35,418 nt of DNA from Oscillospiraceae bacterium (lineage in GTDB: Bacteria > Bacillota > Clostridia > Oscillospirales > CAG-382): the NCBI GenBank assembly GCA_015065225.1, contig SVQR01000011.1:1391-36808 (forward strand), written 5' to 3'. A model generated the notes under the pieces. That model made no database searches. It was given only the letters and a program-made list of their open reading frames with translations, and was not told the DNA's origin. A program made the translations under genes and the position numbers. This document shows positions 9,717 through 30,598 of this stretch, one piece after another; the first letter of the stretch is position 1; every line of letters begins with the position of its first letter.

Positions 9717-10139
9717 TCAATCATTTTTCGCCATGCTCTCACAATAAAGACATCTGTATACCTGCTTCTGTGCATCCGCAAGATAAAACTCGTGAGTCAG
9801 TTCCTGCTCGGTGGAGGTGATGCATCTGGGATTCTTGCACTTTATCACACCTGTAATACGCTCCGGCAGACGAAGCTTCTCGCGCTTTACCTTAGCACCG
9901 TTTTCTATTATGTTCACCGTGATGCCCGGATCTATGTAACCGAGTACGTCAAAGTCGAGTTCCATTTTCTGCGCGATCTTTATAATGTCCTTCTTGCCCA
10001 TCTTTACGCTGTCCGCGTTCTTGATGAGAGCGACACTGCAATCAAGACTGTCAAGTCCGAGGATGTTGTAAACCTGCATTCCCTTGCCGGCTGTTATGTG
10101 GTCAAGTACTATTCCGTCCTGTATCTGTCCTATTATCAT
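9717..10139 (-). CDS. pyrI: Aspartate carbamoyltransferase regulatory subunit
   Basis: GIVLDHITAGKGMQVYNILGL..., ENGKVKREKLRLPERITGVIKCKNPRCIT...CLYCE zinc cysteines; adjacent to pyrB. Confidence 0.95.
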   Translation of the reverse strand: MIIGQIQDGIVLDHITAGKGMQVYNILGLDSLDCSVALIKNADSVKMGKKDIIKIAQKMELDFDVLGYIDPGITVNIIENGAKVKREKLRLPERITGVIKCKNPRCITSTEQELTHEFYLADAQKQVYRCLYCESMAKND

Positions 10140-10153
10140 ATCTTGCACCCTCC

Positions 10154-11074
10154 TTACTTTACTTCAAGCTCAAGAAGCTTCATGATAAGTGCCATTCTCG
10201 CATACTTTCCGTAAAGCACCTGCTTGAAATAGCAAGCTCTCGGATCATCATCTACGGCTACCGCTATTTCGTTTACTCTGGGCAGCGGATGCATGATGCA
10301 GAGATCTTCCTTTGCCTTTTTCAGCTTCTCGGTGTCGAGAATATATGTGTCCTTGAGTCGTATATAGTCCTGCTCGTTGAAGAATCTTTCTCTCTGCACT
10401 CTTGTCATGTAGAGAATATCAAGCTCACCGATGTGATCTTCAAGGCTTCTGACTTCAACATAGTCACAGCCACCGGGAATAAGTACTTCATTCACAACAT
10501 ATTCCGGAACTCTCAGCTCTTCGGGAGAGATAAGCACGAACTTCACACCCTTATATCTTGCCATCGCGGAAATTAGCGAATGTACAGTTCTTCCGAACTT
10601 CAGGTCACCGCAAAGACCGATGGTAAGATTTTCAAATGTACCCTTTTCACGGTGGATTGTGAGAAGGTCGGTAAGCGTCTGTGTGGGATGATTATGACCG
10701 CCGTCACCGGCATTGATGACCGGAACGGAAGCACGCATGGATGCAACAAGAGGCGCACCCTCCTTGGGATGTCTCATTGCGATGATATCCGCATAACAGC
10801 TTACGGTCTTTGCCGTATCGGAAACGCTCTCACCCTTAGCCGCAGAGCTTGACTGAGCCTCGGAAAATCCGAGAACATTGCCTCCCAGCTCATACATAGC
10901 TGCTTCAAAGCTGAGTCTTGTTCTTGTTGACGGCTCGAAGAAAAGCGTTGCGAGCTTCTTGCCGTGGCATACTTCGCTGTACTTTTTAGGGTTTGCGATG
11001 ATGTCTTCTGCTACGGTGATAAGATCTTCTATCTCTTTTACCGTCAGTTCTTTTATGTCGATTAAACTTCTCAT
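10154..11074 (-). CDS. pyrB: Aspartate carbamoyltransferase catalytic subunit
   Basis: [69 protein letters not shown]. Confidence 0.98.
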
Positions 11075-11235
11075 AGTACTCCTTTCTACTTCATAACATA
11101 TTTATAAATATATCGTGTAATAAATTTCTGTCTTGCAGTTTGGTGTTGATTTGGAAAGTCGAATAAGTTTAAACCTATATGTTTTTTAGTTACACATTCT
11201 CAAGAGTTGTTTCCACCGTGAGTGTAGCTGTCTTG

Positions 11236-11596
11236 TCCTAGGTGCACATATGCGCACGAGTTGTTTCCTGCCCCTTGCCATCAAAAGGGCAGATCATCCT
11301 CGCCTTCAAGTCACATATGCGCACGAGTTGTTTCCAGATTGTCGGTCTTGTTAAGAAAATAATAAAGCCTTCAAGTCACACTCGTATACAAATTGCAACC
11401 TTTGTGGACAAGAGATGATAGATTTGGGATGAGCCTTCAAGTCACACTCGTATACAAATTGCAACAAGTATTCCGCATATGGTGTATATCGCTCCGTACC
11501 TTCAAGTCACACTCGTATACAAATTGCAACGTGGTGTGTTCGGGATCAAGAAGGATGTTCCGAACCTTCAAGTCACACTCGTATACAAATTGCAAC
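11236..11596 (-). CRISPR. CRISPR array: four identical 32-nt repeats, one chimeric and one degenerate distal repeat
   Basis: Repeat (minus strand) GTTGCAATTTGTATACGAGTGTGACTTGAAGG at 11565-11596, 11499-11530, 11434-11465, 11368-11399, with spacers of 34, 33 and 34 nt. Variant repeats GGAAACAACTCGTGCGCATATGTGACTTGAAGG at 11303-11335 and a decayed copy at 11236-11268, separated by 32- and 34-nt spacers. A further vestige may lie at about 11182-11214. Confidence 0.96.
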
Positions 11597-11597
11597 A

Positions 11598-11730
11598 GCA
11601 ATATTGCACAAAATAGTGACTCATGCACGGATTACTATGTGCATATTAACCTTCTCGAGTGTATTAACCGCTTGACAGAAGCCAAGTCTTACGCTCACTT
11701 TCTCGATTTGAGGACGTGAAGTCGCCCTAA
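11598..11730 (-). ncRNA. Candidate tracrRNA of the Cas12f-like system
   Basis: Minus strand between effector stop and first repeat: hairpin AGGGCG-ACTTCA-CGTCCT (11711-11728); TCGAGAAAGTG...ACACTCGA pairing (11702-11706 with 11654-11658) around an internal CTTG/CAAG hairpin; hairpin ATGCAC...GTGCAT (11623-11644); anti-repeat GAGTCAC (11616-11622) complementary to repeat GTGACTT, and TGTGCAA-U-ATTGC (11598-11610) complementary to repeat GCAATTTGTAT with G-U pairs and one bulge. Confidence 0.75.
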
Positions 11731-11753
11731 ATATGTGCGAAGCTATTGGATTT

Positions 11754-13067
11754 TTATGTCAGCTCCGGGTTCGCACCCAGATATTCATCAATTATCCTGT
11801 CTATATCTCTGACGGATAAATTCTGCGATGCGTTGAAGTCAGCGTTACATTTATACCCACACTTAATACATTCAAAGCTTTCTTGAGTTTTTCTGTTTTC
11901 GCTTGATATGTATCCGCATTTACTGCATCTTTGCGATGTATATTTCGGCTCAACAGCTATAACCTTAATTCCGTATTCCGCAGCCTTATATTCCATTTTG
12001 GTTCTCAAATCGTAATAAGTCCAATGAACAAGAACAGGTGAATAATCGCCTTTTTTCTCTATACTGTTATCCAGCTTTTCAAGCTGAATTGTTCCGTATC
12101 CGTTTTTTCGTGCATAGTCAACTATAGCCCTGCTGTATCTGTGGTTTATAGTATCCTGGAAATTCGATATCTTATCCCTGGCTTTATATACATCGGCAAC
12201 TCTTGTTTTTGTTCCGTGCCCGATCCTGCCGTCACCACACACTGTCGCTTGATTTTGAAGGGATTTTTTTCGCTTTTCAAGTCTCTTTATAAATTCTGTA
12301 ACCTCTCCGCCCTTTATTCTAAAGGAGCCATATTCTCCTATTGAGCTTGCATAAACAGCAAACTTGACTCCGAGGTCAACGCCAAGAATTTTATCCGGAT
12401 TGAGGTCGTTTTTCTTTTGGGTGAATCTATAAGCAAGAATTAAAAACCATTTTTTGTTATCGTAGATAAGCTGACTTTCGCTTATTTTATATATTTCCGA
12501 AATTACGTTTTCTATTATGGCTCTTTGCGTACCATCTTTGACACACAGCTTGAAATTTACAGCTGCCGGAAAACCATGCAAAGCCTTGAAACCATCAGAA
12601 AAAACCTTTAATCCCACCAAAGCACTTTCGGCATTTCCTCTGATTATTACATTTCTGTTATGAATTATAATAGGCTGATTACTTCTGTACGAAGGAAGCG
12701 ACATTTCACCGCTAAAGATTTTATTTTTTGCATCCTTGAATTTCTTATATGCCTTTCGAACTGTGGAATTTCGACAATCCGAATAAAAAATATTGTAATC
12801 TTCCTTTAATTCAGCATTGATATAATCAGCAACTGCTTTGTATTTGCTACCTGTAAGCTCCTTATCATCAAGCCATTGCCCGGTTTTATCGTGATGTGCA
12901 AACCTCTTGCACTCGAGCGCGTACCCCATCTGTATTGTTTTATTGAGTACCTCTCGAGTTTGCTTTTGTAATTCCCAAAGGTGCTTCTGCATTTCGGAGA
13001 ACTCACCTGCACCGTCAATATACCGAAGTTCGAACTTCATAACTTTTACAATTGTTTTTTCAGCCAT
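11754..13067 (-). CDS. cas12f: Cas12f1-like (type V-F) miniature RNA-guided nuclease, TnpB/OrfB lineage
   Basis: ~437 aa; RuvC-I ILGVDLGVKFAVYAS, RuvC-II YGTIQLEKLDN, zinc ribbon CSKCGYISSENRKTQESFECIKCGYKC, RuvC-III NADFNASQNL. By recalled comparison, collinear with AsCas12f1: GEMSLPSYR, SESQLIYDNKKWFL, GHG-K.R, RDKISNFQDTINHRYSRAIVDYA, WTYYDLRTKMEYKAAEYGIKVI, YTSQRCSKCG, NIDxIIxE-like C-terminus. Adjacent to a CRISPR array. Confidence 0.9.
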   Translation of the reverse strand: MAEKTIVKVMKFELRYIDGAGEFSEMQKHLWELQKQTREVLNKTIQMGYALECKRFAHHDKTGQWLDDKELTGSKYKAVADYINAELKEDYNIFYSDCRNSTVRKAYKKFKDAKNKIFSGEMSLPSYRSNQPIIIHNRNVIIRGNAESALVGLKVFSDGFKALHGFPAAVNFKLCVKDGTQRAIIENVISEIYKISESQLIYDNKKWFLILAYRFTQKKNDLNPDKILGVDLGVKFAVYASSIGEYGSFRIKGGEVTEFIKRLEKRKKSLQNQATVCGDGRIGHGTKTRVADVYKARDKISNFQDTINHRYSRAIVDYARKNGYGTIQLEKLDNSIEKKGDYSPVLVHWTYYDLRTKMEYKAAEYGIKVIAVEPKYTSQRCSKCGYISSENRKTQESFECIKCGYKCNADFNASQNLSVRDIDRIIDEYLGANPELT

Positions 13068-13136
13068 GATAATCACCCCTTCCTTTATTCAACAGTTACG
13101 AATTGGCAAAATCTTCAGCCGCAAATCGCGACCTGT

Positions 13137-13165
13137 ATTATATCAATGCGCCGTCCTTTATAAGC
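13137..13165 (-). promoter_or_regulatory. Possible promoter of the cas12f gene
   Basis: Minus strand perfect -10 TATAAT (13137-13142) overlapping the stop of the upstream oxidoreductase gene; the -35 (GCTTAT at 17-nt spacing) is weak. Confidence 0.35.
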
Positions 13166-14442
13166 CTTTCACGAAGCACTGCGGAATCAACCCTTCTCGT
13201 ATCACCGAGCTCTGTTGCCATAGCCGCAGCAGTCCCCGCCGCCTGACCTGTCATAAAGCACGCCGGCATAACACGCACCGTTGCTTCCATGCTCCTGTCA
13301 GTGCCGATACATCTTCCGGCGACAAGGAGATTGTCAAGTCCCACGGGACAAAGACTTCTGTACGGGATACCGTAGGATTCGCCATGCTTGTATTTCATGT
13401 TCTTTTCGTATTCCTCTCGGAAACGCTTGTATTCTTCTTCGCTGGTGTCCATGACATGGATATCAACGGGATAATTGTATCTTGCGATATCGTCCTTGAA
13501 TACCGATCTTTTAAGAAAGTCACCTGCGTTCAGCATATAGTCGCAGACGATACGCCTTGATTCGCGTATTCCAAGCACTTCGCCTGTGGAGAGCAGCTTT
13601 ATTTTTTTACATCCGTCCACATACTCTCTGTAGTAACGCTGATATTCGAGCATCATTTTTCTGCCGATTATCATCCCCTCCGTCAGAGATTCGTTTGACA
13701 AGGGATCGTTACCGAAGATGTGCCCGAGATTTCCTCCGCCGATGCCTTCAAGTTCTCCTTTTTTGTGGAAAAGCCCCGAAAGGTGTCTGTCGGGATATGT
13801 GAATATGCCGTCGGATATGGCTCTTTCAAGGGATTCCGAACCTGTTCCGGAATTTTTACCGCCATATTTCTTTATATTTATCCCACTCCATACCGAGCAA
13901 AGTGTCGGAGGCATAACGTTGCCGTTCTCATCACCGACCTCATACTTTGCTCCCGCAAAATATGCAAGCTCACCGTCGCCGGTACAGTCTATGTATATCT
14001 TCGCTTTAACCGCAAAAATACCTGTCTTGGATGTAAAAACGATATACTCTATATTGCCTTTATCGTCGGTCACCGCATCACACATCTTTGTGAAGAAAAG
14101 TATCTTTGCACCGGAGTCGGAGACTATTCTGTCATATTCGCGTTTCAGTTCTTCAACCTCGATGGGAGTCCAATATGTGGAAAGTGGGTAATCTTTTGAT
14201 ACATTCTTCCTGATCTCAAGTCCGATTCCACCGATAATTATATCATCGCCGTCGGTAAAAGGCGCAAACGACGGAACAAGTCCTGTTGTCCCCACACCAC
14301 CGAAGCATCCTCCGTTCTCACAGATCAGAACACTCTTTCCGCTTCTTGCCGCCGCAACCGATGCCGCAACACCTGCCGCACCGCCGCCGACTACGAGAAT
14401 ATCGACATTATATTTAACCGTAAGTTCTTTGGTATAAAGCAT
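13138..14442 (-). CDS. FAD-dependent oxidoreductase (FAD_oxidored family)
   Basis: N-terminal dinucleotide-binding motif VDILVVGGGAAGVAASVAAARSGKSVLICENGGCFGGVGTTGLV; C-terminal NLLVAGRCIGTDRSMEATVRVMPACFMTGQAAGTAAAMA. Confidence 0.92.
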   Translation of the reverse strand: MLYTKELTVKYNVDILVVGGGAAGVAASVAAARSGKSVLICENGGCFGGVGTTGLVPSFAPFTDGDDIIIGGIGLEIRKNVSKDYPLSTYWTPIEVEELKREYDRIVSDSGAKILFFTKMCDAVTDDKGNIEYIVFTSKTGIFAVKAKIYIDCTGDGELAYFAGAKYEVGDENGNVMPPTLCSVWSGINIKKYGGKNSGTGSESLERAISDGIFTYPDRHLSGLFHKKGELEGIGGGNLGHIFGNDPLSNESLTEGMIIGRKMMLEYQRYYREYVDGCKKIKLLSTGEVLGIRESRRIVCDYMLNAGDFLKRSVFKDDIARYNYPVDIHVMDTSEEEYKRFREEYEKNMKYKHGESYGIPYRSLCPVGLDNLLVAGRCIGTDRSMEATVRVMPACFMTGQAAGTAAAMATELGDTRRVDSAVLRERLIKDGALI

Positions 14443-14527
14443 AATATGACCTCAAATAAATATGTTATACGGACAAATAGTCTTTATTGCAAGAAAGGCG
14501 GACAAATCTGCCCGCCAACGATCTTAC

Positions 14528-15184
14528 TTACGCCTTTGCACCGTTAACCGCAAGATAGTTCTTTATTCTTGTAACGTTTTCTTCGTTCTTGGGATCTTCT
14601 TCAAGATACTCGATAATGTCATAAACATCAACGATGGAGTATACAGGGAATCCGAACTGCTCCTCGATCTCCTGCATAGCACCCTTTTCGCCCTGTCCCT
14701 TTTCCTTTCTGTCTACCATGATGAAGGTAGCGGCAACCTTTGTTCCTTCAAGGTGGGAGAGTATCTCCATGCTCTCACGGATAGCAGTACCTGCTGTGAT
14801 AACGTCTTCAATAATAACGATCTCCTCGCCCGCTTCGGGAACATATCCTACGAATACGCCGCCTTCACCGTGATCCTTTACTTCCTTTCTGTTAAAGAAG
14901 AAGGGAACATTGAGACCGTTCTTTGAAAGAGCAACAGCTGCGGAAACGGAAAGGGAGATTCCCTTATAAGCGGGGCCGTAAAGTACAGCCTGCTTCTTTC
15001 CGAGCTTTTCAAAATATGCCTTTGCATAGAACTCACCGAGTGTTGCGATATCGTTACCTGTCTTGATCATACCTGCGTTGATGAAATAGGGGATCTTTCT
15101 GCCGCTTTTTGCGGTGAAGTCGCCGAACTTGAGTACTCCTGCGGACTCAAGGAACTGTATAAATTCTCTCTTATAGCTTTCCAT
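14528..15184 (-). CDS. pyrE: Orotate phosphoribosyltransferase
   Basis: LKFGDFTAKSGRKIPYFINAGMIKTG, PRPP motif EIVIIEDVITAGTAIRES. Confidence 0.96.
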   Translation of the reverse strand: MESYKREFIQFLESAGVLKFGDFTAKSGRKIPYFINAGMIKTGNDIATLGEFYAKAYFEKLGKKQAVLYGPAYKGISLSVSAAVALSKNGLNVPFFFNRKEVKDHGEGGVFVGYVPEAGEEIVIIEDVITAGTAIRESMEILSHLEGTKVAATFIMVDRKEKGQGEKGAMQEIEEQFGFPVYSIVDVYDIIEYLEEDPKNEENVTRIKNYLAVNGAKA

Positions 15185-15216
15185 GATTAAACCTCCGTTT
15201 TAACTTATATCTTTTA

Positions 15217-15915
15217 TTAGCCTACAAACTCGGCAACGCATCTGTCATATGCCGCAACCGGATCTTCGGCAGCTGTGATGGGACGTCCGACAACAATGTA
15301 GTCCGAGCCGATCTCTTTCGCCTGTGCGGGAGTCATAACTCTTGCCTGGTCACCCTTGTCGCCGTCGGCAAATCTTACGCCGGGAGTGATGGTGAGGAAC
15401 TTCTCGCCGCAGAGGTCGTGTACCTTACCTGCTTCAAGAGGAGAACAAACAACACCGTCAAGTCCTGCTTCTGCAGCGTTCTTTGCATAGTGCATAACTA
15501 CCTTGTCGATGGGCTCACGAATCAGAAGATCCTGTTCCATTCTTTCCTGATTTGTGCTTGTGAGCTGTGTAACTGCGATAAGAAGCGGTCTTGTGCCGTC
15601 CTCACGGGTAAGACCTTCGAGAGCTGCTTCCATCATAGCCTTTGTGCCGCCTGCGTGAAGGTTTGTGATATCTACATCCAGATGTGAAAGAACAGCCATA
15701 GCTTTCTTTACCGTATTGGGAATATCGTGGAGCTTAAGGTCGAGGAATATCTTGTGACCTCTTGCCTTTATCTCACGAACTATGTCCGGACCTTCCGCAT
15801 AGAAAAGCTCCATACCGATCTTTACGAAAAGCTTTCTGTCGCCGAACTTTTCAAGAAATTCAATTACCTGTGCCTTGCCCGCAAAATCGCAGGCGATTAT
15901 TACGTCCTTACCCAT
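15217..15915 (-). CDS. pyrF: Orotidine 5'-phosphate decarboxylase
   Basis: [66 protein letters not shown]...[17 protein letters not shown]. Confidence 0.97.
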
Positions 15916-15974
15916 TTTTGTTTACCTCCAAATATATAAAACTTAATACTTAACCAAAGATAAACGGTACTTTA

Positions 15975-16886
15975 TCAATGTGCCGCACCGATAATATCGG
16001 AAAGCCTTTCAATCCCGTACTTCTCCATAGTTTCCGGCAACTTTTCAATGATAGTCTTGCTTGCAAAAGGATCAATAAGATTTGCAGCACCGATCTGGAC
16101 TGCCGTCGCACCTGCGAGCATCATTTCGATCACATCCTCGGCACTTGAAACACCGCCCATACCTACTATCGGTATCTTTACCGCATCGTATACCTGATAT
16201 ACCATACGAAGTGCCACCGGGAATATAGCCGCACCGGAGAAGCCGCCCATTTTGTTTGCGATAACGGGCTTTTTCTTTTTAAGGTCGATACGCATACCGA
16301 GAAGTGTGTTTATCATACTGATACCGTCAGCACCCTCAGCCTCACACGCCTTTGCTATCTCCGCGATATTGGTTACATTGGGCGAGAGCTTTATAAGAAG
16401 CGGCTTTTTTGTTACGGCTCTTACCGCTTTTGTTACGCTTGCCGCCGCCTCCGGACTTGTGCCGAATGCGATACCGCCGCCGTGAACGTTGGGACAGCTG
16501 ATATTCACCTCAAACCAGCCGATCTGATCTTCCGCATCAAGTTTTTCAACGGTGTATGCATATTCTTCAAGCGAGAATCCGGATACATTCGCCATAACAG
16601 GCTTGTGGAATACCTTCTTCATCTTCACAAGCTCTTCCGACATTACCTTTTCAACGCCGGGATTCTGAAGACCTACGGCATTTATCATACCGTTGGGAGT
16701 TTCCGCAATTCTCGGTGTGGGATTGCCGAATCTCGGATCTTTTGTCGTTCCCTTGAAGGAGAACGTACCCAATACATTTATATCATAAAGCTCCGCAAAC
16801 TCGTAGCCGAAGCCGAATGTGCCGCTTGCGGGAATGACGGGATTGTCCAGTTCTATACCGCAGAGGGTTACTTTTGTGTTTGTCAT
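15975..16886 (-). CDS. pyrD: Dihydroorotate dehydrogenase B catalytic subunit
   Basis: NPVIPASGTFGFGYEFAELYD, MINAVGLQNPGVEKV, EVNISCPNVHGGGIAFGTSPE, IPIVGMGGVSSAEDVIEMMLAGATAVQIGAANL. Confidence 0.97.
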   Translation of the reverse strand: MTNTKVTLCGIELDNPVIPASGTFGFGYEFAELYDINVLGTFSFKGTTKDPRFGNPTPRIAETPNGMINAVGLQNPGVEKVMSEELVKMKKVFHKPVMANVSGFSLEEYAYTVEKLDAEDQIGWFEVNISCPNVHGGGIAFGTSPEAAASVTKAVRAVTKKPLLIKLSPNVTNIAEIAKACEAEGADGISMINTLLGMRIDLKKKKPVIANKMGGFSGAAIFPVALRMVYQVYDAVKIPIVGMGGVSSAEDVIEMMLAGATAVQIGAANLIDPFASKTIIEKLPETMEKYGIERLSDIIGAAH

Positions 16887-16904
16887 TTTATTTCTCCATT
16901 ACAA

Positions 16905-16946
16905 TCTGAATTGTCAACTATCAATTATCAATTGTTAATTGTCAAT
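16905..16946. repeat. Short heptameric tandem repeat between pyrK and pyrD
   Basis: tgaattg-tcaacta-tcaatta-tcaattg-ttaattg-tcaattg: six 7-bp near-identical units. Confidence 0.7.
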
Positions 16947-17673
16947 TGAATATGATTTCCTCTTTAACCAGCACAGGTCCGTCCTTACAGATTCTCTTAT
17001 TGCCGTAAAGTGTCTTGCAAGAGCATCCCATGCAAGCACCGAAGCCGCAACCCATTCTTTCTTCAAAGCTGTACTGACCGCTTGTGACACTTGTGTTGTA
17101 AACAGCCTTCAGCATAGGCTCCGGACCACAGCAGTATGTGTATGTATAATCCATATTCTTGAGAGCATCGGTAACAAAGCCTTTTACACCGTAGCTTCCG
17201 TCAACTGTCGTAACAGTAACGCTCGCACCGAGAGCCTTGAATTCTTTCTCGTAGAATACTTCATCCTTGGTGTTGAAGCCGAGGATGACGGATACCTTTT
17301 TGCCCGCTGCGACAAGCTCCTTTGCAAGCATATACATGGGAGGAACACCCACACCGCCTCCGAGAAGAACGGGACAATCACCGCTTTCCGAAAGGCTGTA
17401 GCCGTTGCCGAGACCTGTGAGTATGTCAAGCTCTTTTCCGTTTTCGAGACCTGCCATATATTCCGTACCTGTACCTATGACCTTGTAGATTATTGTAAGC
17501 TCGCCCTCCTTGCAGTCGCACACCGAGATAGGACGGCGAAGGAAGAATCCGTCGAGCTTTATGTTTACAAACTGTCCGCACGCGATGCCATCGGTATCAC
17601 CGAGAAGTGTCATTTCATAGACATTGGATGTAAGCTTCTTCTGTTCTTTTATTGTGAATATTGTCTGTTTCAA
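16942..17673 (-). CDS. pyrK: Dihydroorotate dehydrogenase B electron transfer subunit
   Basis: FAD domain FFLRRPISVCD..., GGGVGVPPMYMLAKEL, 2Fe-2S cysteines CGFGACMGCSCK...KRICKDGPV. Likely TTG start at 17673 after aaggag. Confidence 0.93.
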   Translation of the reverse strand: MKQTIFTIKEQKKLTSNVYEMTLLGDTDGIACGQFVNIKLDGFFLRRPISVCDCKEGELTIIYKVIGTGTEYMAGLENGKELDILTGLGNGYSLSESGDCPVLLGGGVGVPPMYMLAKELVAAGKKVSVILGFNTKDEVFYEKEFKALGASVTVTTVDGSYGVKGFVTDALKNMDYTYTYCCGPEPMLKAVYNTSVTSGQYSFEERMGCGFGACMGCSCKTLYGNKRICKDGPVLVKEEIIFN

Positions 17674-17775
17674 GGTTGTTACTCCTTTTTTAAGATTGGG
17701 AGCGGATACTATCCGCATACGATATCTCGGATCTACCGCCCACCAATTCTTAATTATGAATTCTTAATTATTATT

Positions 17776-20700
17776 TCACTCTGCGTCTATAGTAGAAACC
17801 TGCATAGTAATTTCTTCGAGAACGTCAAGGAGAACTCTTGCGGTATCAAGGGATGTGAACATTGTAACTCCGCACTCAACGGCAAGTCTTCTTATCTCGT
17901 AGCCGTCCTTTGCGTGGTTTTCCTTGCTGATGTCGGCTGTGTTGAGAACATAGGCGATATGTCCCTGTCTCATTGCGTTGGGAATATCCTCACTGCCCTC
18001 GGAGATCTTAGCTCTGCTTCTTGTTCTTATACCGTGTTCTTTGAGGTACTTTGCAGTACCCTCTGTTGCTTCTATATTGAAGCCGAGCTTGTAGAATCTT
18101 CTTATGAGCTCAAGTGCTTCTTCCTTGTCACCGTCGGCGATGGTTGCAAGCACCGTACCGTAGTTCTGAAGATCCATGCCTGAAGCCTGAAGTGCTTTAT
18201 AGAGTGCACGGTTAAGCTGCTTGTCATAACCGATAGCTTCACCTGTAGACTTCATTTCGGGGGAAAGATATGCATCAAGTCCGCCTATCTTCGCAAAGGA
18301 GAATACAGGAACCTTAACGTACCATCTCTTCTTTTCCGAAGGATACATTTCTGTTATGCCCTGATCCTTCAGAGACTTACCGAGAATAACGTTTGTCGCA
18401 ATATCCGCAAGGCTGTAGCCTGTGGACTTTGAAAGGAAGGGAACTGTTCTGGAGCTTCTGGGGTTAACTTCTATGATAAATACCTTTTCTTCCTTGTCAA
18501 CAATAAACTGAATGTTGTAAAGACCGACTATGCCGAGTCCGAGACCGAGCTTCTTGGCATAGTCAAGGATGGTGTCCTTTACCTTCTGAGAGATGCTGAA
18601 AGAAGGATATACGCTGATACTGTCACCGCTGTGGATACCTGTTCTCTCAACAAGCTCCATGATACCGGGAACGAATACATCCTTACCGTCACAGATGGCA
18701 TCAACTTCGACTTCCTTACCGAGGATATAGTGGTCGACAAGTACGGGCTTGTCCTCATCCACTTCAACGGCTGTCTTAAGGTAGTGTCTGAGCTGAGCCT
18801 CCGTTGCAACTATCTGCATCGCACGTCCGCCAAGCACGAAGCTGGGACGTACAAGAACGGGATAGCCGATCTCTTTTGCAACTCTTACACCGTCTTCGAT
18901 GTTTGTAACCGCTTCACCCTGAGACTGGGGTATCTTAAGCTCTGTGAGTATCTTTTCAAATCTGTCTCTGTCCTCTGCATTTTCAATAGCATCGACAGTT
19001 GTACCGATAATGTTTACTCCGTTGTCGGAGAGACCGGGAGCAAGGTTGATGGCTGTCTGACCGCCGAGGGATGCTATAACATCGTTTGCATTTTCAAACT
19101 TCAGTATATTGAGTACATCCTCCTGTGTCAGAGGCTCGAAGTAGAGCTTATCGGATGTGGTATAGTCTGTGGATACCGTTTCGGGATTGTTGTTGATGAT
19201 TATAGCCTCATAGCCTTCACGTCTGATGGTGGATACTGCGTGAACGGTAGAATAGTCGAATTCTACACCCTGACCGATACGGATAGGTCCTGCACCGAGA
19301 ACCACTTTTTTCTCTCTGTCCGTAACAATGGACTTGTTCTCGCCTTCGTAGCTGGAGTAGAAGTAAGGAATGTAAGCATTTGTATGGCAGGTATCAACCA
19401 TTCTGTACACGGGAACAATATTGTTGTCAAATCTTTCGTCGCGTACTTCCTTTTCCGTAACATCCCAGAGCTTTGCAATGTACTTATCGGAGAAGCCGAT
19501 CTTCTTTGCTTCTTTAAGGATCTCGATATTACCCTTGTTGTCGGCAATTACCTTTTCGTAGTCGATTATCTTCTTGATTTCTTCGAGGAACCAGGGAGTG
19601 ATAGCCGTGATCTTAAAGAGCTCTTCAACGGACATACCCATTCTCATGAGCTTTGCTACAACAAAGATACCGTCATCGTGGAAGTCCTTGAGGTAGTCCA
19701 CAAGCTCTTCTTTGGTATAGGCGTCGAATTTAGCCATCCAGAGGTGGAAAACTCCGATCTCAAGTGAACGTACAGATTTAAGAAGACATTCGGAGAACGT
19801 GCTTCCGATACCCATTACTTCACCTGTAGCCTTCATCTGTGTACCGAGCTTGTTTGTGGCTGTGGCAAATTTATCGAAGGGGAAACGGGGCATCTTTGCA
19901 ACAATGTAGTCGAGACTGGGCTCAAATGCCGCATTTGTGTTTGCAATAGCGATATCCTCAAGAAGCATACCGACAGCAATCTTTGCGGTAACTCTTGCAA
20001 TAGGATAACCGGAAGCCTTGGATGCAAGTGCGGAGGAACGTGAAACTCTGGGGTTTACTTCGATAAGGAAGTATTCGCTTGTATGGGGATTGAGAGCAAA
20101 CTGAACATTACAGCCGCCTTCTATCTTGAGTGCCTTGATGATCTTTATCGCACTGTCGTTGAGCATCTTAAGATCGTGATCGTTAAGAGTAAGGATAGGA
20201 GCTACAACTATGGAGTCACCTGTGTGAACACCTACGGGGTCAACATTTTCCATGCCGCAGATGGTGATTGCATGGTCGGAGCTGTCACGCATTACCTCAA
20301 ATTCTATCTCCTTGTAGCCTCGAACGCTCTTTTCTATAAGCACCTGATGAACGGGTGAGAGCTGGAACGCTCCTCTGCCTATCTCACGGAGTTCAGCTTC
20401 ATTGTATGCAAAGCCGCCGCCGGTGCCGCCGAGTGTAAATGCGGGACGGAGAACAACGGGATAACCTATCTCTGCCGCAGCCTGTGCAGCCTCATCTACG
20501 CTGTATGTGATTCTTGAAGGGATGACAGGCTCACCGATCTGTTCGCAAAGCTCCTTGAACAGCTCTCTGTCCTCGGCTCTCTCTATGGATTCGCTGCTTG
20601 TACCCAGAAGAAGTGTGCCGCATTCCTTGAGAACGCCCTTCTTTTCAAGCTGCATCGCAAGATTAAGACCTGTCTGACCGCCGATACCGGGAATGATGGC

Positions 20701-20952
20701 ATCGGGGCGCTCGGAACGGAGGATGCGTGCAACATATTCAAGTGTCAGAGGCTCCATGTATACCTTATCCGCAATTGTTGTATCCGTCATGATGGTTGCG
20801 GGATTGGAGTTTACGAGTATTACCTCGTAGCCTTCTTCACGAAGAGCGAGACACGCCTGAGTGCCCGCATAGTCGAATTCGGCAGCCTGACCGATAACGA
20901 TAGGTCCGGAGCCGATGATCATTATTTTTTTGATGTCTGTTCTTTTTGCCAT
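17776..20952 (-). CDS. carB: Carbamoyl-phosphate synthase large subunit
   Basis: MAKRTDIKKIMIIGSGPIVIGQAAEFDYAGTQACLALREEGYEVILVNSNPATIMTD; duplicated ATP-grasp halves; 1058 aa. Confidence 0.99.
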   Translation of the reverse strand: MAKRTDIKKIMIIGSGPIVIGQAAEFDYAGTQACLALREEGYEVILVNSNPATIMTDTTIADKVYMEPLTLEYVARILRSERPDAIIPGIGGQTGLNLAMQLEKKGVLKECGTLLLGTSSESIERAEDRELFKELCEQIGEPVIPSRITYSVDEAAQAAAEIGYPVVLRPAFTLGGTGGGFAYNEAELREIGRGAFQLSPVHQVLIEKSVRGYKEIEFEVMRDSSDHAITICGMENVDPVGVHTGDSIVVAPILTLNDHDLKMLNDSAIKIIKALKIEGGCNVQFALNPHTSEYFLIEVNPRVSRSSALASKASGYPIARVTAKIAVGMLLEDIAIANTNAAFEPSLDYIVAKMPRFPFDKFATATNKLGTQMKATGEVMGIGSTFSECLLKSVRSLEIGVFHLWMAKFDAYTKEELVDYLKDFHDDGIFVVAKLMRMGMSVEELFKITAITPWFLEEIKKIIDYEKVIADNKGNIEILKEAKKIGFSDKYIAKLWDVTEKEVRDERFDNNIVPVYRMVDTCHTNAYIPYFYSSYEGENKSIVTDREKKVVLGAGPIRIGQGVEFDYSTVHAVSTIRREGYEAIIINNNPETVSTDYTTSDKLYFEPLTQEDVLNILKFENANDVIASLGGQTAINLAPGLSDNGVNIIGTTVDAIENAEDRDRFEKILTELKIPQSQGEAVTNIEDGVRVAKEIGYPVLVRPSFVLGGRAMQIVATEAQLRHYLKTAVEVDEDKPVLVDHYILGKEVEVDAICDGKDVFVPGIMELVERTGIHSGDSISVYPSFSISQKVKDTILDYAKKLGLGLGIVGLYNIQFIVDKEEKVFIIEVNPRSSRTVPFLSKSTGYSLADIATNVILGKSLKDQGITEMYPSEKKRWYVKVPVFSFAKIGGLDAYLSPEMKSTGEAIGYDKQLNRALYKALQASGMDLQNYGTVLATIADGDKEEALELIRRFYKLGFNIEATEGTAKYLKEHGIRTRSRAKISEGSEDIPNAMRQGHIAYVLNTADISKENHAKDGYEIRRLAVECGVTMFTSLDTARVLLDVLEEITMQVSTIDAE

Positions 20953-21008
20953 TTCCTTTTCCTCCGTAAATATATAACAGAATGTTTTTTACTGTATTTA
21001 TATGATTG

Positions 21009-22277
21009 TTATTTATTTGCAATATAAGCGATCTTACCGTTACAAATCGTCATAAGGCACTTGCCGTAGACTTCTTCACCCTCGAAAGGCGTGCTTCTTC
21101 CCATGGAAAGGAACTCCGCAGGATCGACCTTGTACTTTTCAGCAAAGTCAAACACCGTAAAATCTGCCCTGTCTCCGATTTCCGTGCCGCCGGTTGGAAG
21201 TCCAAAACGACGTCTCGGATTTGTATGCATAAGCTCCACAAGTCTTTCGGCGGTTATCTTTCCCGTTTTTACAAAGTTTGTATACATAACCGCAACTGCC
21301 GTTTCGATACCCACAACGCCCATGAGGCTCTTTTCAAGTCCTCTTGACTTTTCCTCGGCAGAGTGCGGTGCGTGGTCTGTTGCTATCATGTCTATCGTTC
21401 CGTCGAGTATTCCCGCAACGAGTGCTTCTCTGTCCTCGCTGCCTCTCAAGGGAGGGTTCATCTTGAATCTCGCATTTTCCTGTAAATCGGAATCATCAAG
21501 CACAAGATAGTGGGGACCTGTTTCGCAGGTGATATTTACTCCTTCAGCCTTTGCTTTTCTTATTATATCGACACTTTCCTTTGTGGAAATATGGCAGACG
21601 TGATATGCACATCCGGTTTCTTTTATAAGCTCAATGTCTCTTGCTATCGGCTTCCATTCGGACTCTGAACATATACCCTTGTGACCGTGAGCCTTTGCAT
21701 ATTCTCCGTCGTGGATATATCCGCCGTGAAGAAGGGAATTGTCCTCGCAGTGAGCTGCGATTATCTTTCCGCATTCTTTTGCCTTTATCATGGCGTTCTT
21801 CATCATCTCTCTGTCCTGAACGCCCTTGCCGTCGTCAGAGAAACCGATGCACAGCGGAGAAAGAGCTGTGATATCCGTAAGCACTTCACCTTTTTCGCCT
21901 TCTGTTATGCAGGCGTAAGGATAAACGTTTATGCAGGCATCATTTTTTATCGCTCTAAGCTGGACATTGATATTTTCCACGCTGTCGGGACAGGGGTTAA
22001 GGTTGGGCATTGAGCATACCGCCGTATAGCCGCCTCTTGCACTTGCCGCTGTACCTGTCGCAATGGTCTCTTTATACAAAAAACCCGGCTCTCTGAGATG
22101 CACGTGAACATCACAAAGTCCGGGAAAAAGGAATGCACCGCCACAGTCGATAATTTCGACGTCGGAAACATCTTCCATATCACTTGAAGAAACAACAATA
22201 CCGTCTTTAAGGAATAAATCACCCTTGGAAAATTTGCCCTGTCGGTATATGTTACAGTTTCTCAGAATGTAATTCAT
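21009..22277 (-). CDS. pyrC: Dihydroorotase
   Basis: FLFPGLCDVHVHLREPGFLYKETIATGTAASARGGYTAVCSMPN, DMIATDHAPHSAEEK. Confidence 0.97.
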   Translation of the reverse strand: MNYILRNCNIYRQGKFSKGDLFLKDGIVVSSSDMEDVSDVEIIDCGGAFLFPGLCDVHVHLREPGFLYKETIATGTAASARGGYTAVCSMPNLNPCPDSVENINVQLRAIKNDACINVYPYACITEGEKGEVLTDITALSPLCIGFSDDGKGVQDREMMKNAMIKAKECGKIIAAHCEDNSLLHGGYIHDGEYAKAHGHKGICSESEWKPIARDIELIKETGCAYHVCHISTKESVDIIRKAKAEGVNITCETGPHYLVLDDSDLQENARFKMNPPLRGSEDREALVAGILDGTIDMIATDHAPHSAEEKSRGLEKSLMGVVGIETAVAVMYTNFVKTGKITAERLVELMHTNPRRRFGLPTGGTEIGDRADFTVFDFAEKYKVDPAEFLSMGRSTPFEGEEVYGKCLMTICNGKIAYIANK

Positions 22278-24050: not shown

Positions 24051-27000
24051 TTACTTTGCTTCAACAAAGTAGATATTGCAATTCTTGTCGCCGAGATTCT
24101 TTTCAATCACCTCACCGATATTTGCACTGTAGTTGTATGTGATCATAGGCGCACCGTGGATTATCGCCTTTCTGCCATAGTACTGTACAAAGGTGTTGTT
24201 GTCCCATGTGGGAAGCCACTGTGCGTATGTTGCACCGACATATATGAGGTTGCTTCTGCCTCTGTCAAAGATGTTGCCTTCGATATGGTAGTTATCCGCT
24301 CTGTTTGCACTGCCGCCTCTTATGTGAGCGTCGTTGCCCTTGTCAGGTCTCTGCTGACCGAAGCCGTAACCGCAGAGTCGGAGGATGTTGTCCTTGAAGA
24401 GAATATTTTCCATTCTTCTCTCAACCGTATCGTTTGCGCCTACGGCACAGAAGTATTCTATGTTATAGATACACTTTTCAATAACATTGTTGGAGTATGT
24501 AACATCCTTCATAAGAATGTTGTTTGTACCGCCGGAGGACTGCTGGTGAGTGATTCCTGCGTCGTAGCACTGATATACATAACAGTTGTCTATAAGATAG
24601 TAGTCGCATCCGCCGTAGATCTCGACACCGTTGCCGTATCTTGCACCGCCGTAGTTGCCGCCCTGGAAGGAGCCGCCTATCCAGCCGAATTCACAGTTTG
24701 TAACAACGAGATTCTTTGTTGTGGGTGCGGAGATACCATGGAAACCGAAGTGGATGAATTCAAGGTTATCAACAGTAATATTGTTGCCGTTGACTCTCAG
24801 ACCGTGGCTTCCTCTGTTGATAGCTATACTGTCATAAAGCTCACCGGGGTTGCCCTCGTCCCATCTGAGATAAACGATACCGGATTCAAGCTCGTGGAAG
24901 AAGTAATGGTTGTCCATAGAGCCTATGCCTGTCCAATCCTTCTTTGCGGTCTCATCGAATGACTTGTCCTTGTTGAGCTTTACCTTTATACCTTCAGCCT
25001 CATAGTCGGAGCCGTTTATATTCATAAAGATGCCGCCGATATCGCTTGTCATTGTCTGATGATATTTATACACATTGGGAGTATCTGTGAGTATCCATGC
25101 TTCTTTGTAGCCTGCGTTTTCGGGAGAACCGTTGATAACAGGCTTTTTGCCTTCTCCGTAAGCGGTGTAGGTAACGCCGGCAGCACCCTTTATAGCCTGA
25201 GTTGTTCTGAACTCATCGCCGCGTCTGAAGAATACGGCATCGTTGCTTGCAAGCTTTACGGTATTGAGCTTTTCTATGCTCTTCCAAGCCGTTTCGGGAG
25301 TTTTACCGTCGTTTTCGTCGTTACCCTCTGCGGAGAGATAGTAAGCCTGACCTGTAAACTCCACTTTCTTGTTGGGAGTATTTCTGATCTCATCTATCCT
25401 CTTTGCGGTAAGCTCATCAAGAGAAGCGACATACGCATCACCGGGAGTGAAGTCCTTGATGGTAAGACCGACTGTGGATTCCCATCTTTCGATACCGTCA
25501 TCGGCTGCCGCCTTGAGCTTGTGGCCTACGGAGGCTTCCATTACCTCGTAGTATGCCCAGTGAGTGCTGTCAATATCGTTGAATACTACGGGAAGTTTAA
25601 ATCCGGGAGTTACCTCGGTAACTTTTCTTCCGTGTGCATTGTTGATGACTTTTACGACCTCAGCTCTTGTTATGGTAGCATCCGGCTTAAAGCTGAATGT
25701 ACCGTTGCCGTTGTCGTATCCGTTTACAAGTCCCGCCTTTGCTGCTGCCATTATAACATCGTATCTCGGATGAGATGCGTCAACATCCGTGAAGGAAACT
25801 GCCTTTTCGCCATCCTTAGAAAGTCCCATGTTATAAATGAGCTCAACAAATTCGGCTCTTGTTATGTTCTGATTGGGAGCGAATGTACCGCTGTAGGCTC
25901 CAAGCCAGCCCTTTGCTTCGCAGTATGCGACATACTTCTTGAACCATGCATCGTTTGCAATATCGGTAAATGCGGTTGTACATTCCGCGGGTACACCGGC
26001 ATCGCTCTTGGCATCTATCCTTGCAGCGATGGTACAAGCTTCAGCTCTTGTCATTGTGCCTGCAGGTCTGAAGGTGTTATCCTCATAACCGCTGATATAT
26101 GCACCGTGAGAGCCTTCGCCCGGATATTCCTTGAAGAAGTCAAGCTGTGCTATGTACATAACATCGGAAGGATCAAGATCCGCTGTGGAGAGTGTACCGA
26201 AGGGATAAACGACACCCTGTCTGAAGATGTGGGATGCACCTTCCACAAAGAATTCTTCCATGCCCGAAATATCAAGTGTTGCGACCGCCCATGTTCCGAT
26301 CTGACAAGGTTCTTCCGCAAACACCTTTATACCGCCCGTAAATCTCTTTTCACCGGCGGGAGCAAAGGAGGTGATGTTGTAACCGATCTTGATATCACTC
26401 CTGGGATTGTCGGAAACGTATTTATAGGTTATCTGCATATATTTGTAAACATCAAGGTCTACCTTTGCACGATCGGCATATTCCCATCCGTTGAGAGAGG
26501 GAACGGAGTCCTTTTCACGGTTGGGATCGACCTGTGTACGGATAGCCTTCAGACCGTCTTCGGTTACGCTTGTGACTATCGCACCGACAGCCGCCTTGGA
26601 GTCGTTCATATGCATGGAAGGATACGAGAGGGATATAACATCCTTCTGCTCTGCCTTATATTTCCATTTTGCGGTAAATGATGTGAATGCTTCCGGGAAT
26701 ATAGCCTGTTCTCCGGGCTTGTAGACCTTGTTGTCATGAGACCAGAGCCAGCCTTCGAATTCCGCATTTTCCATGGTAAATGTACATTCCGGAACAGACA
26801 TGGGGTAGTTACCGACACACTTTACGGGCATCTGGCTTCCCTTTGCCTTTACGTCGCCGTTGTAGAAGGTGTGTGTGAATTCGTAATCGGGAGCGGGATT
26901 GTTTGTACATAGAGTGATGCTTTCAATGTACATAACGTCTGTGGATTTAAGATCCGCTCTTGATGTTGCACCGTAAGGTCTGAAATGTATCTGACGGAGC

Positions 27001-27512
27001 ATATGGGAGTCAATTTCCGGATTGAGCTTGGGCTCGGATGCGGAACCCATGCAGAAGGTAGCTGTTGCCCACTTGTTTGCAACGACATTTTCAAGGGATG
27101 TCATGTTGACGGTTCCCGTAAGTATCTTGCCGTTTGTAAGCATATTGAGCTGCATCCTGCCGCTGTATGACGGCTCGGCATCGCCTGTCTCGTATTTATA
27201 TGAAACTATCGCATATTTGAACTTATCAAGATCCCAGCCCTTGTTGCCGACATCCCAGCAGTCAAGAGTTACCGGATCGTTGATGGTGGATTCCTCATTG
27301 GGTATGACCTCGACACAGGTCCTGCCCTCATGGGTAACACCCTTTGCATACTTTGCCGTATCCCTGCTGTTTACAATGGCATTAACCAGTAAGCTGTAAG
27401 GGATAACGTGTGTTTCACCGAGATCGATCTGTGCTTCCTGAGCCGATGCCGTAAATGACATCGTGGAAAGCAGCAGTATCGAGCTTAAGATGACAGAAAA
27501 AAGCTTTTTCAT
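24051..27512 (-). CDS. Secreted SLH-domain right-handed beta-helix surface protein
   Basis: Start MKKLFSVILSSILLLSTMSFTASAQ; two CBM-like repeats, an InlB-B/Flg_new-like segment (AEFEGWLWSHDNKVYKPGEQAIFPEAFTSFTAKW), three SLH repeats, then beta-helix (YYLSAEGNDENDGKTPETAWKSIEKLN..., GGCDYYLIDNCYVYQCYDAGITHQ). Confidence 0.85.
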   Translation of the reverse strand: MKKLFSVILSSILLLSTMSFTASAQEAQIDLGETHVIPYSLLVNAIVNSRDTAKYAKGVTHEGRTCVEVIPNEESTINDPVTLDCWDVGNKGWDLDKFKYAIVSYKYETGDAEPSYSGRMQLNMLTNGKILTGTVNMTSLENVVANKWATATFCMGSASEPKLNPEIDSHMLRQIHFRPYGATSRADLKSTDVMYIESITLCTNNPAPDYEFTHTFYNGDVKAKGSQMPVKCVGNYPMSVPECTFTMENAEFEGWLWSHDNKVYKPGEQAIFPEAFTSFTAKWKYKAEQKDVISLSYPSMHMNDSKAAVGAIVTSVTEDGLKAIRTQVDPNREKDSVPSLNGWEYADRAKVDLDVYKYMQITYKYVSDNPRSDIKIGYNITSFAPAGEKRFTGGIKVFAEEPCQIGTWAVATLDISGMEEFFVEGASHIFRQGVVYPFGTLSTADLDPSDVMYIAQLDFFKEYPGEGSHGAYISGYEDNTFRPAGTMTRAEACTIAARIDAKSDAGVPAECTTAFTDIANDAWFKKYVAYCEAKGWLGAYSGTFAPNQNITRAEFVELIYNMGLSKDGEKAVSFTDVDASHPRYDVIMAAAKAGLVNGYDNGNGTFSFKPDATITRAEVVKVINNAHGRKVTEVTPGFKLPVVFNDIDSTHWAYYEVMEASVGHKLKAAADDGIERWESTVGLTIKDFTPGDAYVASLDELTAKRIDEIRNTPNKKVEFTGQAYYLSAEGNDENDGKTPETAWKSIEKLNTVKLASNDAVFFRRGDEFRTTQAIKGAAGVTYTAYGEGKKPVINGSPENAGYKEAWILTDTPNVYKYHQTMTSDIGGIFMNINGSDYEAEGIKVKLNKDKSFDETAKKDWTGIGSMDNHYFFHELESGIVYLRWDEGNPGELYDSIAINRGSHGLRVNGNNITVDNLEFIHFGFHGISAPTTKNLVVTNCEFGWIGGSFQGGNYGGARYGNGVEIYGGCDYYLIDNCYVYQCYDAGITHQQSSGGTNNILMKDVTYSNNVIEKCIYNIEYFCAVGANDTVERRMENILFKDNILRLCGYGFGQQRPDKGNDAHIRGGSANRADNYHIEGNIFDRGRSNLIYVGATYAQWLPTWDNNTFVQYYGRKAIIHGAPMITYNYSANIGEVIEKNLGDKNCNIYFVEAK

Positions 27513-27779
27513 TTTTCGTTCCTTTCTTAATGCTTTCGCATAGTATATTTTAACGTAAAAACTATACCATAATTTCGTCATTGTGTCAAGTCAAAATAAG
27601 TAAAATGCACGACAAAAATCACATTATGCACAAATATAGCAAAGGTTTTGAAATAGATATTTTAGTTAATTCCGTCATATTTGGGCATATTTTATTGTTT
27701 TTTTGTATTGATTTTATGGTTTTGATGTTATATAATTAAACTGTATATAAATTTACTATTTTTTGAAAGGAGCTCTTAT

Positions 27780-30566
27780 ATGAAAGCAGTAAGGTATCTA
27801 TTGCTGATAATTATATCATCTTTTGCGTTCGGAGCATTCACCGCACCGGCGCAGAGCTATATCGACGATGCGATAATTCTTGATTTTACGGATTACGCCA
27901 ACGGGATTGTAAACGGCAATAATTCGGCAACTCTGAGCAATGTCACAATCGACGGAAGATCCGCACTGAAGGTGGTACCGCTTCCCGAAAATGCGACATC
28001 CAAGCTGAAATACATTTCCGTTGACGGTTTTTCATATTTGAAAGCGGGAATTAATCTTGAAGAATACTGCTGGGTAGCATACGAGTATTACTATAAATCG
28101 GATAATCCCAAGGAACTTTATATGGAAGGGGATATGCTGACCTCAAAGACTCAAACCAATCCGGGGGTGATCACGGAGAGAATCGTGATAAAATCCGATA
28201 AGCCCGCCAAAGCAAATGCATGGTCTACGGTATTATTTGATTTTTCAGAGGTCAAGGAAAAGCTCGTCGAGGAAGCAGCAAACCACAACCTGAAACAGAT
28301 GCATTTTCGTCCGTTTGGAGCATATAACCTCGAATACCTGAATCCGGAAGACGAGATGTACATAAGCAAAGTAATGTTCTTCAAGGAAAAGCCGACTCTC
28401 AACTATAGAAATGCTTTTCTCAGCGGATATCCCGACGGCACATTCAAGGCAGGAAACATTCTTACCCGTGCGGAAGCCTGCAAGATGGTTGCCACAAGCC
28501 TTGAAGTAAACGACGATGATATAATCGGTGAGCCCACATATACTGATGCAAAAGACGAATGGTATTCAAGATATATCGGCTATCTTCAGAATAAGGGTAT
28601 ACTTTCCTTTGCCACAGGTAAGACTTTCAATCCCAATGCTCCCATTACAAAGACGGACTTTACAAAGCTCGTTATTTCCGGTGGCATAGTGCAGGATCTG
28701 GGAGATGTCAATCTTGAAAACTACTTCGGCAGCACCGCATCCGCAGAGTCCTCAGGTCAGGTCACAAGACTTCAGGCGGCAATGATGATAAATCAGCTTC
28801 GCGGTACTGTGATATCCGATTCCGATATTCCGGACTCTATTTTTGTCCTGTATCTCGATGTTGAAAGAGATGATCCGCATTTTGCGGAAATTGCCGAGGC
28901 ATCCTTTGATCACGTTTCCGACGGAACAAAATGGGTGTACGCTGCCGAGGATCCGGTGCAGTCTCTTATAGACAAGGTCGGTGAGGAGAAATTATACGAT
29001 TTTGAAGCCGGTAATGCCAAGGTAGCGGAGCTGGATGAGCTTGAAGAAGACAGAATAGCGGAAATAAGAGCTACCGAAAATATGAAGATAACAACGGATA
29101 AGGTGATATATGTTTCTTCCTCCTTAGGAAGTGATTCAAACGACGGTCGTTCGGAGGATTATCCGGTAAAGACCGTAGCAAAGGCGAACTCCCTTGTTAC
29201 GGCAAACGACGGTTGGGTGATACTTCTTCAAAGGGGCGATCTCTGGCGCGAAAGAATTGCCTGTGTTGCGGGAACGACATATTCCGCATACGGTTCGGGC
29301 GATAAGCCGAGGATATACGGTTCTCCCGAAAACGGAGCAGATCAGCACAAATGGACTCTTGTATATGAGAATAAGGAAACCGGAGCTCTCATCTGGAAGT
29401 ACTACCGTGAGGACTTCCTGGATGTCGGTACTCTGGTATTCAATAACGGTGAAGGCTTTGCCATGAAGGAAGTCCCCTCATGTGTCGGTGCTGACTATTA
29501 TGTGAGAGGTCAGGAAAATCTCCCCGTTGAGGAAAGAACACCTTACGATTACACCGTAGAGCTTGACAAGAATCTCGAGTTTTTCCATTCGGCAAATTCT
29601 GTGGTTAAAGCAAACAGCACCATCGGTGATTATATCGACATCAGTACTTCAACAGGTCCGCTGTATCTGCGTTGCGATAACGGTAACCCCGGTAAGGTAT
29701 TCACTTCCATAGAATTCAATACAAGACCTTCGGCGATTTCCGCAAAAGACAATGTTACAATTGATAACCTCTGCATCATGTATGCCGGCGTTCACGGCAT
29801 CTCCAGCGGAACCGTAAAGAATCTCAAGGTCACAAATTGCGAGATAGGCTGGATAGGCGGCTCGATACAAGGGTACACTGCTAACGGCAACACAAAGAGA
29901 ACGGCAACACGCCTCGGAAACGGTGTCGAGGTGTACGGCGGTTGTGACGGTTATACCATTGACAACTGTTATGTTTACCAGTGCTATGATGCGGGCGTTA
30001 CACATCAGTTTTCCAACCTTTCCTCCGGCAACTGTATTATGAACGATGTTACATATTCCAACAATGTCATAACGGAGTGCGTATACAGTATAGAATATTT
30101 CCTCGGAACATACGGTGAGGAGGATCAATATACACGTCAGGGTGACAACATCCTGTTTGACTCAAACCTTATGAGACGGGCGGGCTACGGCTTCGGTTCA
30201 TTCCGCCCCGACGGTCACAATCAGAGGCATATCCGTTCCTCCGACAGAAACAATCCCTTCACCAACTACAGAATAGTGAACAATATTTTTGACAGATCGG
30301 TTCATCAGCTTATTGCGGCGATAACAGACCGTGCCGAATGGAAGCCATCCTTTGACGGAAACACCTTTATCCAGGGCATAAACAACGGATTTTATTCCTT
30401 CGCATACTACGGCTCTGCAAATATGGATATTAATGCCAAAGAACTCACCGAAAAGATACTCGGTGACCAAAATGCAGAGGTATACTATGTAAACAATATA
30501 CCTTACTGGGAATACACCTACGCACCTGCAAATAAATATCCTGTCACAAACTCCGACAGAGAGTGA
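27780..30566 (+). CDS. Secreted SLH-domain right-handed beta-helix surface protein (paralogue)
   Basis: Signal peptide; SLH (FLSGYPDGTFKAGNILTRAEACKMVA); IYVSSSLGSDSNDGRSEDYPVKTVAKAN; VEVYGGCDGYTIDNCYVYQCYDAGVTHQ. Confidence 0.85.
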   Translation: MKAVRYLLLIIISSFAFGAFTAPAQSYIDDAIILDFTDYANGIVNGNNSATLSNVTIDGRSALKVVPLPENATSKLKYISVDGFSYLKAGINLEEYCWVAYEYYYKSDNPKELYMEGDMLTSKTQTNPGVITERIVIKSDKPAKANAWSTVLFDFSEVKEKLVEEAANHNLKQMHFRPFGAYNLEYLNPEDEMYISKVMFFKEKPTLNYRNAFLSGYPDGTFKAGNILTRAEACKMVATSLEVNDDDIIGEPTYTDAKDEWYSRYIGYLQNKGILSFATGKTFNPNAPITKTDFTKLVISGGIVQDLGDVNLENYFGSTASAESSGQVTRLQAAMMINQLRGTVISDSDIPDSIFVLYLDVERDDPHFAEIAEASFDHVSDGTKWVYAAEDPVQSLIDKVGEEKLYDFEAGNAKVAELDELEEDRIAEIRATENMKITTDKVIYVSSSLGSDSNDGRSEDYPVKTVAKANSLVTANDGWVILLQRGDLWRERIACVAGTTYSAYGSGDKPRIYGSPENGADQHKWTLVYENKETGALIWKYYREDFLDVGTLVFNNGEGFAMKEVPSCVGADYYVRGQENLPVEERTPYDYTVELDKNLEFFHSANSVVKANSTIGDYIDISTSTGPLYLRCDNGNPGKVFTSIEFNTRPSAISAKDNVTIDNLCIMYAGVHGISSGTVKNLKVTNCEIGWIGGSIQGYTANGNTKRTATRLGNGVEVYGGCDGYTIDNCYVYQCYDAGVTHQFSNLSSGNCIMNDVTYSNNVITECVYSIEYFLGTYGEEDQYTRQGDNILFDSNLMRRAGYGFGSFRPDGHNQRHIRSSDRNNPFTNYRIVNNIFDRSVHQLIAAITDRAEWKPSFDGNTFIQGINNGFYSFAYYGSANMDINAKELTEKILGDQNAEVYYVNNIPYWEYTYAPANKYPVTNSDRE

Positions 30567-30598
30567 CAAGTTAACAAAAGCTTTTCAAGGAGACCACT

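Follow-up and report, generated by a model that had tools for sequence, protein, structure and literature searches.

A type V-F CRISPR-Cas12f array that looks like two generations of its own repeat

The Cas12f cassette and its setting

The DNA analysed here (the window, a stretch of 35,418 nt from an Oscillospiraceae bacterium) carries an inserted cassette of 2,063 bp (11075..13137, minus strand) with cas12f, a predicted tracrRNA, and an array of repeats, all on the minus strand. The cassette lies within a pyr gene cluster, between a FAD-dependent gene and pyrB. In G001, a genome of the same genus, the same two flanking genes are 40 bp apart and the pyrB protein is 96% identical. The co-directional pyrimidine-synthesis cluster around the cassette (window 9717-22277, same strand) contains, as judged by sequence, pyrI, pyrB, the FAD-dependent gene, pyrE, pyrF, pyrD, pyrK, carB, and pyrC. 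Since the cassette sits inside this co-directional cluster, it may be co-transcribed with it. Elsewhere in the window, at 24051-32719, genes lying close together encode three large proteins that resemble one another, two of which have a signal-like start and S-layer-like parts.

The cas12f gene (11754..13076, minus strand) encodes 440 aa from a GTG start, with an in-frame ATG 9 bases downstream. Its product matched PADLOC Cas12f (1.4e-118), OsCas12f (PDB 9nzq; 1.3e-143), and the Pfam entry Cas12f1-like_TNB, and residues D234, E333, and D413 are invariant in alignment A1. The protein has the properties of a type V-F effector, with a length in the range of about 400-700 aa and both RuvC and zinc-binding C-terminal parts. 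An adjacent array with regular repeats and unique spacers, and a tracrRNA with an anti-repeat predicted to pair with the repeat, are likewise as found in this subtype. Going by these sequence features, the locus is an ordinary type V-F CRISPR-Cas12f system with an informative mosaic array. It resembles the Clostridia system OsCas12f1 of Oscillibacter, with an effector about 50% identical and the same order of gene, tracrRNA, and array. This order, cas12f followed by a tracrRNA region of ~120-300 nt and an array on the same strand, was seen in ~25 related loci, in which the tracrRNA region between cas12f and the array is conserved and the trailing repeats are decayed. The same genome (G000) also contains a Cas9 and Cas1 locus (L060, contig C43, 7079-12556) with an unrelated 36-nt repeat (GTTTGAGTCCCTTATTAAATTACACTACTCTCAAAC); its Cas1, the only one found in the genome, might serve acquisition in trans.

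Two repeat types in one array

The coordinates and sequences that an earlier note had assigned to the repeats proved exact to the base, as did its division of the array into two types. The repeats R7 (11565-11596), R6 (11499-11530), R5 (11434-11465), and R4 (11368-11399) are identical 32-mers, here called type A (GTTGCAATTTGTATACGAGTGTGACTTGAAGG); R7 is leader-proximal and R4 adjoins the units of the other type, type B. R3 (11303-11335; GGAAACAACTCGTGCGCATATGTGACTTGAAGG) is an intact type B repeat of 33 nt, whose 3' 13 nt equal those of type A. R2 (11236-11268; GGAAACAACTCGTGCGCATATGTGCACCTAGGA) has an exact 24-mer in common with the 5' part of R3 and a decayed 3' end (6/13 positions), and R1 (11182-11214; GGAAACAACTCTTGAGAATGTGTAACTAAAAAA) is a worn type B copy at the trailer end, beyond a 21-nt spacer. 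New spacers are usually acquired at the leader end. If this applies here, R7, which adjoins the tracrRNA, is the newest repeat and R1 the oldest.

The spacers (34, 33, 34, 32, 34, and 21 nt) had no match in the phage and plasmid records searched for targets. One of them has a 7-nt seed match, preceded by CTTC, just upstream of cas12f, as might be expected if the divergent units were a functional regulatory element such as a crRNA-like guide repressing cas12f. This spacer, however, sits behind a normal type A repeat, and seeds of such length numbered 12 compared with 7.5 +/- 2.0 when loci were swapped, with no consistent site or PAM. With seed matches near chance level and no PAM-flanked seed, spacer autoregulation of cas12f was rejected, and a regulatory role of the divergent units in general is highly improbable.

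The earlier note had described the 5' half of R3 as completely different. The half does differ, but this wording was too strong: in register with R4, 8/19 positions match, with one extra base. Most of the A-B substitutions in the 5' part (8/11) are transitions. When the A and B 5' parts were compared alone, their resemblance was not significant (shuffle p = 0.26), and descent of A from B is for that reason not established. The switch from R4 to R3 is abrupt, without intermediate repeats. Type B starts with GGAAAC and type A with GTTGCAA, the family consensus. An assembly chimera is an unlikely cause, because the identity at the border is just 13 nt and thereby too short for a k-mer join.

Stepwise drift would be one way to arrive at two such types, with point mutations in the leader-proximal repeat accumulating over many acquisitions and intermediate units being deleted later. 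The predominance of transitions fits this, internal unit loss has been described (PMC8047081), and in the related loci L007 and L004 older and newer units differ by one or two bases. The smooth A-B gradient that would have spoken against the earlier note's view was not found among the relatives, although the gradients in L007 and L004 show that stepwise change is possible. Drift would nevertheless require 11 substitutions and one indel inside 19-20 nt while the neighbouring 13 nt stayed unchanged, the loss of every intermediate unit, and several coordinated changes to turn GGAAAC into the family-consensus GTTGCAA. We therefore regard it as rather unlikely.

We also considered trailer-end degeneration. 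Leader-distal mutations and their spread by copying have been described (PMC4869251), as have 3' changes of terminal repeats and inter-repeat recombination (PMC8047081). The deviating repeats of the window array are at the trailer end too, and R2, when judged relative to type B, is a case of normal terminal decay, with the usual loss at the 3' end. Terminal decay in the relatives likewise hits the 3' side and spares the 5' side (L006, L007, L009, L011, L012, L014, L018, L022, L023, and L029). R3, in contrast, is an intact repeat whose deviation is on the other side: its 5' part is changed (8/19) and its 3' part kept (13/13). In agreement with the earlier note, the alternative 5' part common to R2 and R3 is thus not ordinary terminal decay. 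A second case with the polarity of R3 is the last repeat of L020 (2980-3011), which matches at 11/19 in the 5' part and 12/13 in the 3' part. Small 5' drift beside an intact 3' part was observed in L007, L018, L019, L023, and L025. In the nearest V-F arrays, in contrast to the window array, the repeats differ from one another only by terminal decay or by drift of one or two bases.

The 13 nt that A and B have in common at the 3' end turned out to be conserved family-wide. This part matches at 13/13 in L012, 12/13 in L014, and 11/13 in L006, L007, and L011, other species in which it stands beside quite different 5' parts, and the repeats of the nearest loci end in CTTGAAGG. Any type B repeat would accordingly be expected to contain it, and the proposal that R3 is a chimera is unneeded and was rejected. 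A crossover within a repeat would moreover leave a hybrid that reads as an A repeat (A 5' part plus an indistinguishable 3' part), not as R3. The B 5' part is itself family-like: its resemblance was significant to the repeats of L008 and L011 (p<0.001, 0/1000 shuffles), L007 (p = 0.005), and L009 (p = 0.008), and most of its differences from L008 and L011 are transitions. R3 is accordingly best taken as a repeat that is older but intact.

What remains of the fusion idea is that two V-F arrays were joined via the shared 3' 13 nt, an A leader side to a B trailer side, which would make R4 the hybrid and mean that the spacer separating R4 from R3 arrived with B. The abrupt boundary and the possible crossover segment within the repeat are features that the array has in common with recombinational rearrangement, for which inter-repeat recombination is a proposed route (PMC8047081), and a genome can have two Cas12f loci, as G694 does. 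On the other hand, no donor was identified. The 24-mer of R2 and R3 has no other site in the genome at <=3 mismatches (assembly 84.5% complete), and GAGTTGTTTCC, searched at <=1 mismatch, has 3 sites in the window compared with 0.55 expected, all within R1-R3. The earlier note had suggested looking in the genome for an independent source of B; the rest of the assembled genome (84% complete) contained no second V-F locus, no separate type B array, and no second anti-repeat for type B. The repeat of the Cas9 locus is unrelated and was rejected as a source. Among the relatives examined there was no B array, and thus no B array with a B-matched tail, and the empty congeneric site in G001 holds neither a B relic nor any other repeat relic. 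Furthermore, the boundary could also be explained if the first repeat was replaced and acquisition then went on as normal. Fusion is, in our judgement, unlikely.

Pairing of repeats with the anti-repeat tail

The predicted tracrRNA (11597..11728, minus strand; 5' end inferred from the conserved start GGGCGACTTCNCGTCC) matched no Rfam family. Its anti-repeat tail (TGAGTCACTATTTTGTGCAATATTGCT; 11597..11623, minus strand) abuts R7 directly, and in the nearest loci the anti-repeat also abuts repeat 1 without a gap. A nine-locus alignment of tail and first repeat gave three helices that pair the tail with the repeat; pairing in separate helices is likewise seen in the V-F systems of Clostridia. Over the whole structure, 8 pairs had changed on both sides, compared with 2.9 in shuffles (0/500), a result to be taken with caution as the sequences are related, and sliding the tail and repeat partners against each other destroyed the covariation signal. 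The 3' 13 nt of the repeat (the GTGACTTGAAGG side) face GAGTCAC of the tracrRNA, while the final 20 nt of the tail lie opposite the 5' half. The own repeat was the best partner of the tail in 6/9 loci, or in 7 with L006 and L007 taken as one because of their common tail.

We next compared how the two repeat types fit the present tail, using predicted duplex energies throughout. Type A reached -22.6 kcal/mol (p 0.002 and 0.005 in two runs against shuffled 5' halves) and type B -17.8 kcal/mol (p about 0.10). Scrambling the 5' half gave a repeat that paired no worse than B (-18.3), so the residual pairing of B is not specific. As the earlier note had stated, R3 retains the GTGACTT:GAGTCAC pairing and has lost the GCAAT:ATTGC pairing; it also keeps the predicted central stem TGCGCA:TGTGCA. 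On these predictions, crRNAs from R3 would be expected to work less well.

Similar differences were predicted elsewhere. In L020, the energy is -14.5 kcal/mol (p 0.018) for the newer repeat and -9.7 (p 0.28) for the older one, a step of 4.8 kcal/mol that equals the A-B step of the window. Among ten arrays compared, pairing of the older variants is weaker by 1.8-4.8 kcal/mol in 4/10 (the window locus, L020, copy 5 of L007, and L004), older and newer units of the remaining arrays differ by at most 1 kcal/mol, and no older unit pairs better by >0.7 kcal/mol. A good fit between repeat and tail is not universal, since the repeat of L012 fits its own tail (-18.7 kcal/mol, p 0.10) no better than B fits the tail here.

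The tail and R7 are together predicted to fold into a hairpin (-22.0 kcal/mol) that is nearly continuous and has a 4-nt loop. Such a quasipalindrome could have permitted a templated correction, in which a template switch during replication rewrote the 5' half of the first repeat from part of the tail and created A in one step; template switching in such repeats produces changes in clusters, and RNA hairpins can arise from it and be maintained by it (PMC8794818). Type A is, however, not an exact complement of the tail, their pairing including G-U pairs, a one-base bulge, and an internal loop, and its start GTTGCAA is the family consensus, which makes copying unnecessary. We consider this route very unlikely.

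A probable joint change of tail and repeat

Altogether, the array looks like two generations of the locus's own repeat rather than one into which a foreign repeat was fused. Probably, the tail changed jointly with the 5' half of the first repeat, which it abuts, and newer repeats then copied the new form while older units kept the old one. New units would be copied from the leader-proximal repeat, such that R7-R4 would carry the current type A and R3-R1 the earlier type B. The 3' 13 nt, which pair with GAGTCAC of the tracrRNA, stay constant across the family. Being contiguous, the tail and the first repeat's 5' half form one unit of ~46 bp, which makes joint replacement possible: a short tract of exchange or conversion that ends in the conserved 3' part could replace both together, and every new repeat would thereafter be type A. 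A would then have replaced B in one event, with the tail changing along with the repeat.

This joint change may be compared with structures of OsCas12f, in which stem 4 of the gRNA makes no protein contact and its removal (delta 106-125) raised interference tenfold (PMC13186708). The numbering suggests that stem 4 corresponds to the stem of anti-repeat and 5' repeat; if it does, these results fit a 5' half that is free to change. A tentative and on balance doubtful generalization would be that in Cas12f systems the 5' half of the first repeat makes up one evolutionary cassette with the tail beside it, swapped or rewritten in a single step. If this were true, a cassette swap would reset the identity of all future repeats and strand older immune memories with weakly matching repeats, and the window array and L020 would be direct fossils of such a swap. 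The evidence base here consists of two arrays (window and L020) and predicted energies. Repeat mutations have been studied by subtype in a dedicated work cited in PMC12638026, and we therefore claim novelty with caution.

The window array makes testable the question of how tracrRNA anti-repeats and CRISPR repeats can evolve jointly while immunity is preserved. With a past and a present repeat beside the present anti-repeat in one array, it can be asked whether the older unit still loads. The array also points to a half of the V-F repeat that may be free to change, a point relevant to the design of guide RNAs.

Several further observations were made in the related loci. In L012 (5463-5629), the repeat starts with GATCATCA instead of GTTGCAA, and the tail would pair better with type A of the window (-20.9 kcal/mol) than with its own repeat (-18.7). 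The tracrRNA region of L009 (5297-5417) is just 121 nt long, without the conserved middle and hairpin (CACTCGAAAAGGTTAAG...CCGTGCATGAG), and is accompanied by an array of about 11 near-identical repeats. At the two different Cas12f loci of G694 (L035 and L036), an array was detectable at one within the stretch examined. Finally, on the Ruminococcus albus plasmid pRUMAL01 (L037, 598-765), a short repeat array lies ~2 kb upstream of a Cas12f-like gene rather than adjoining it.
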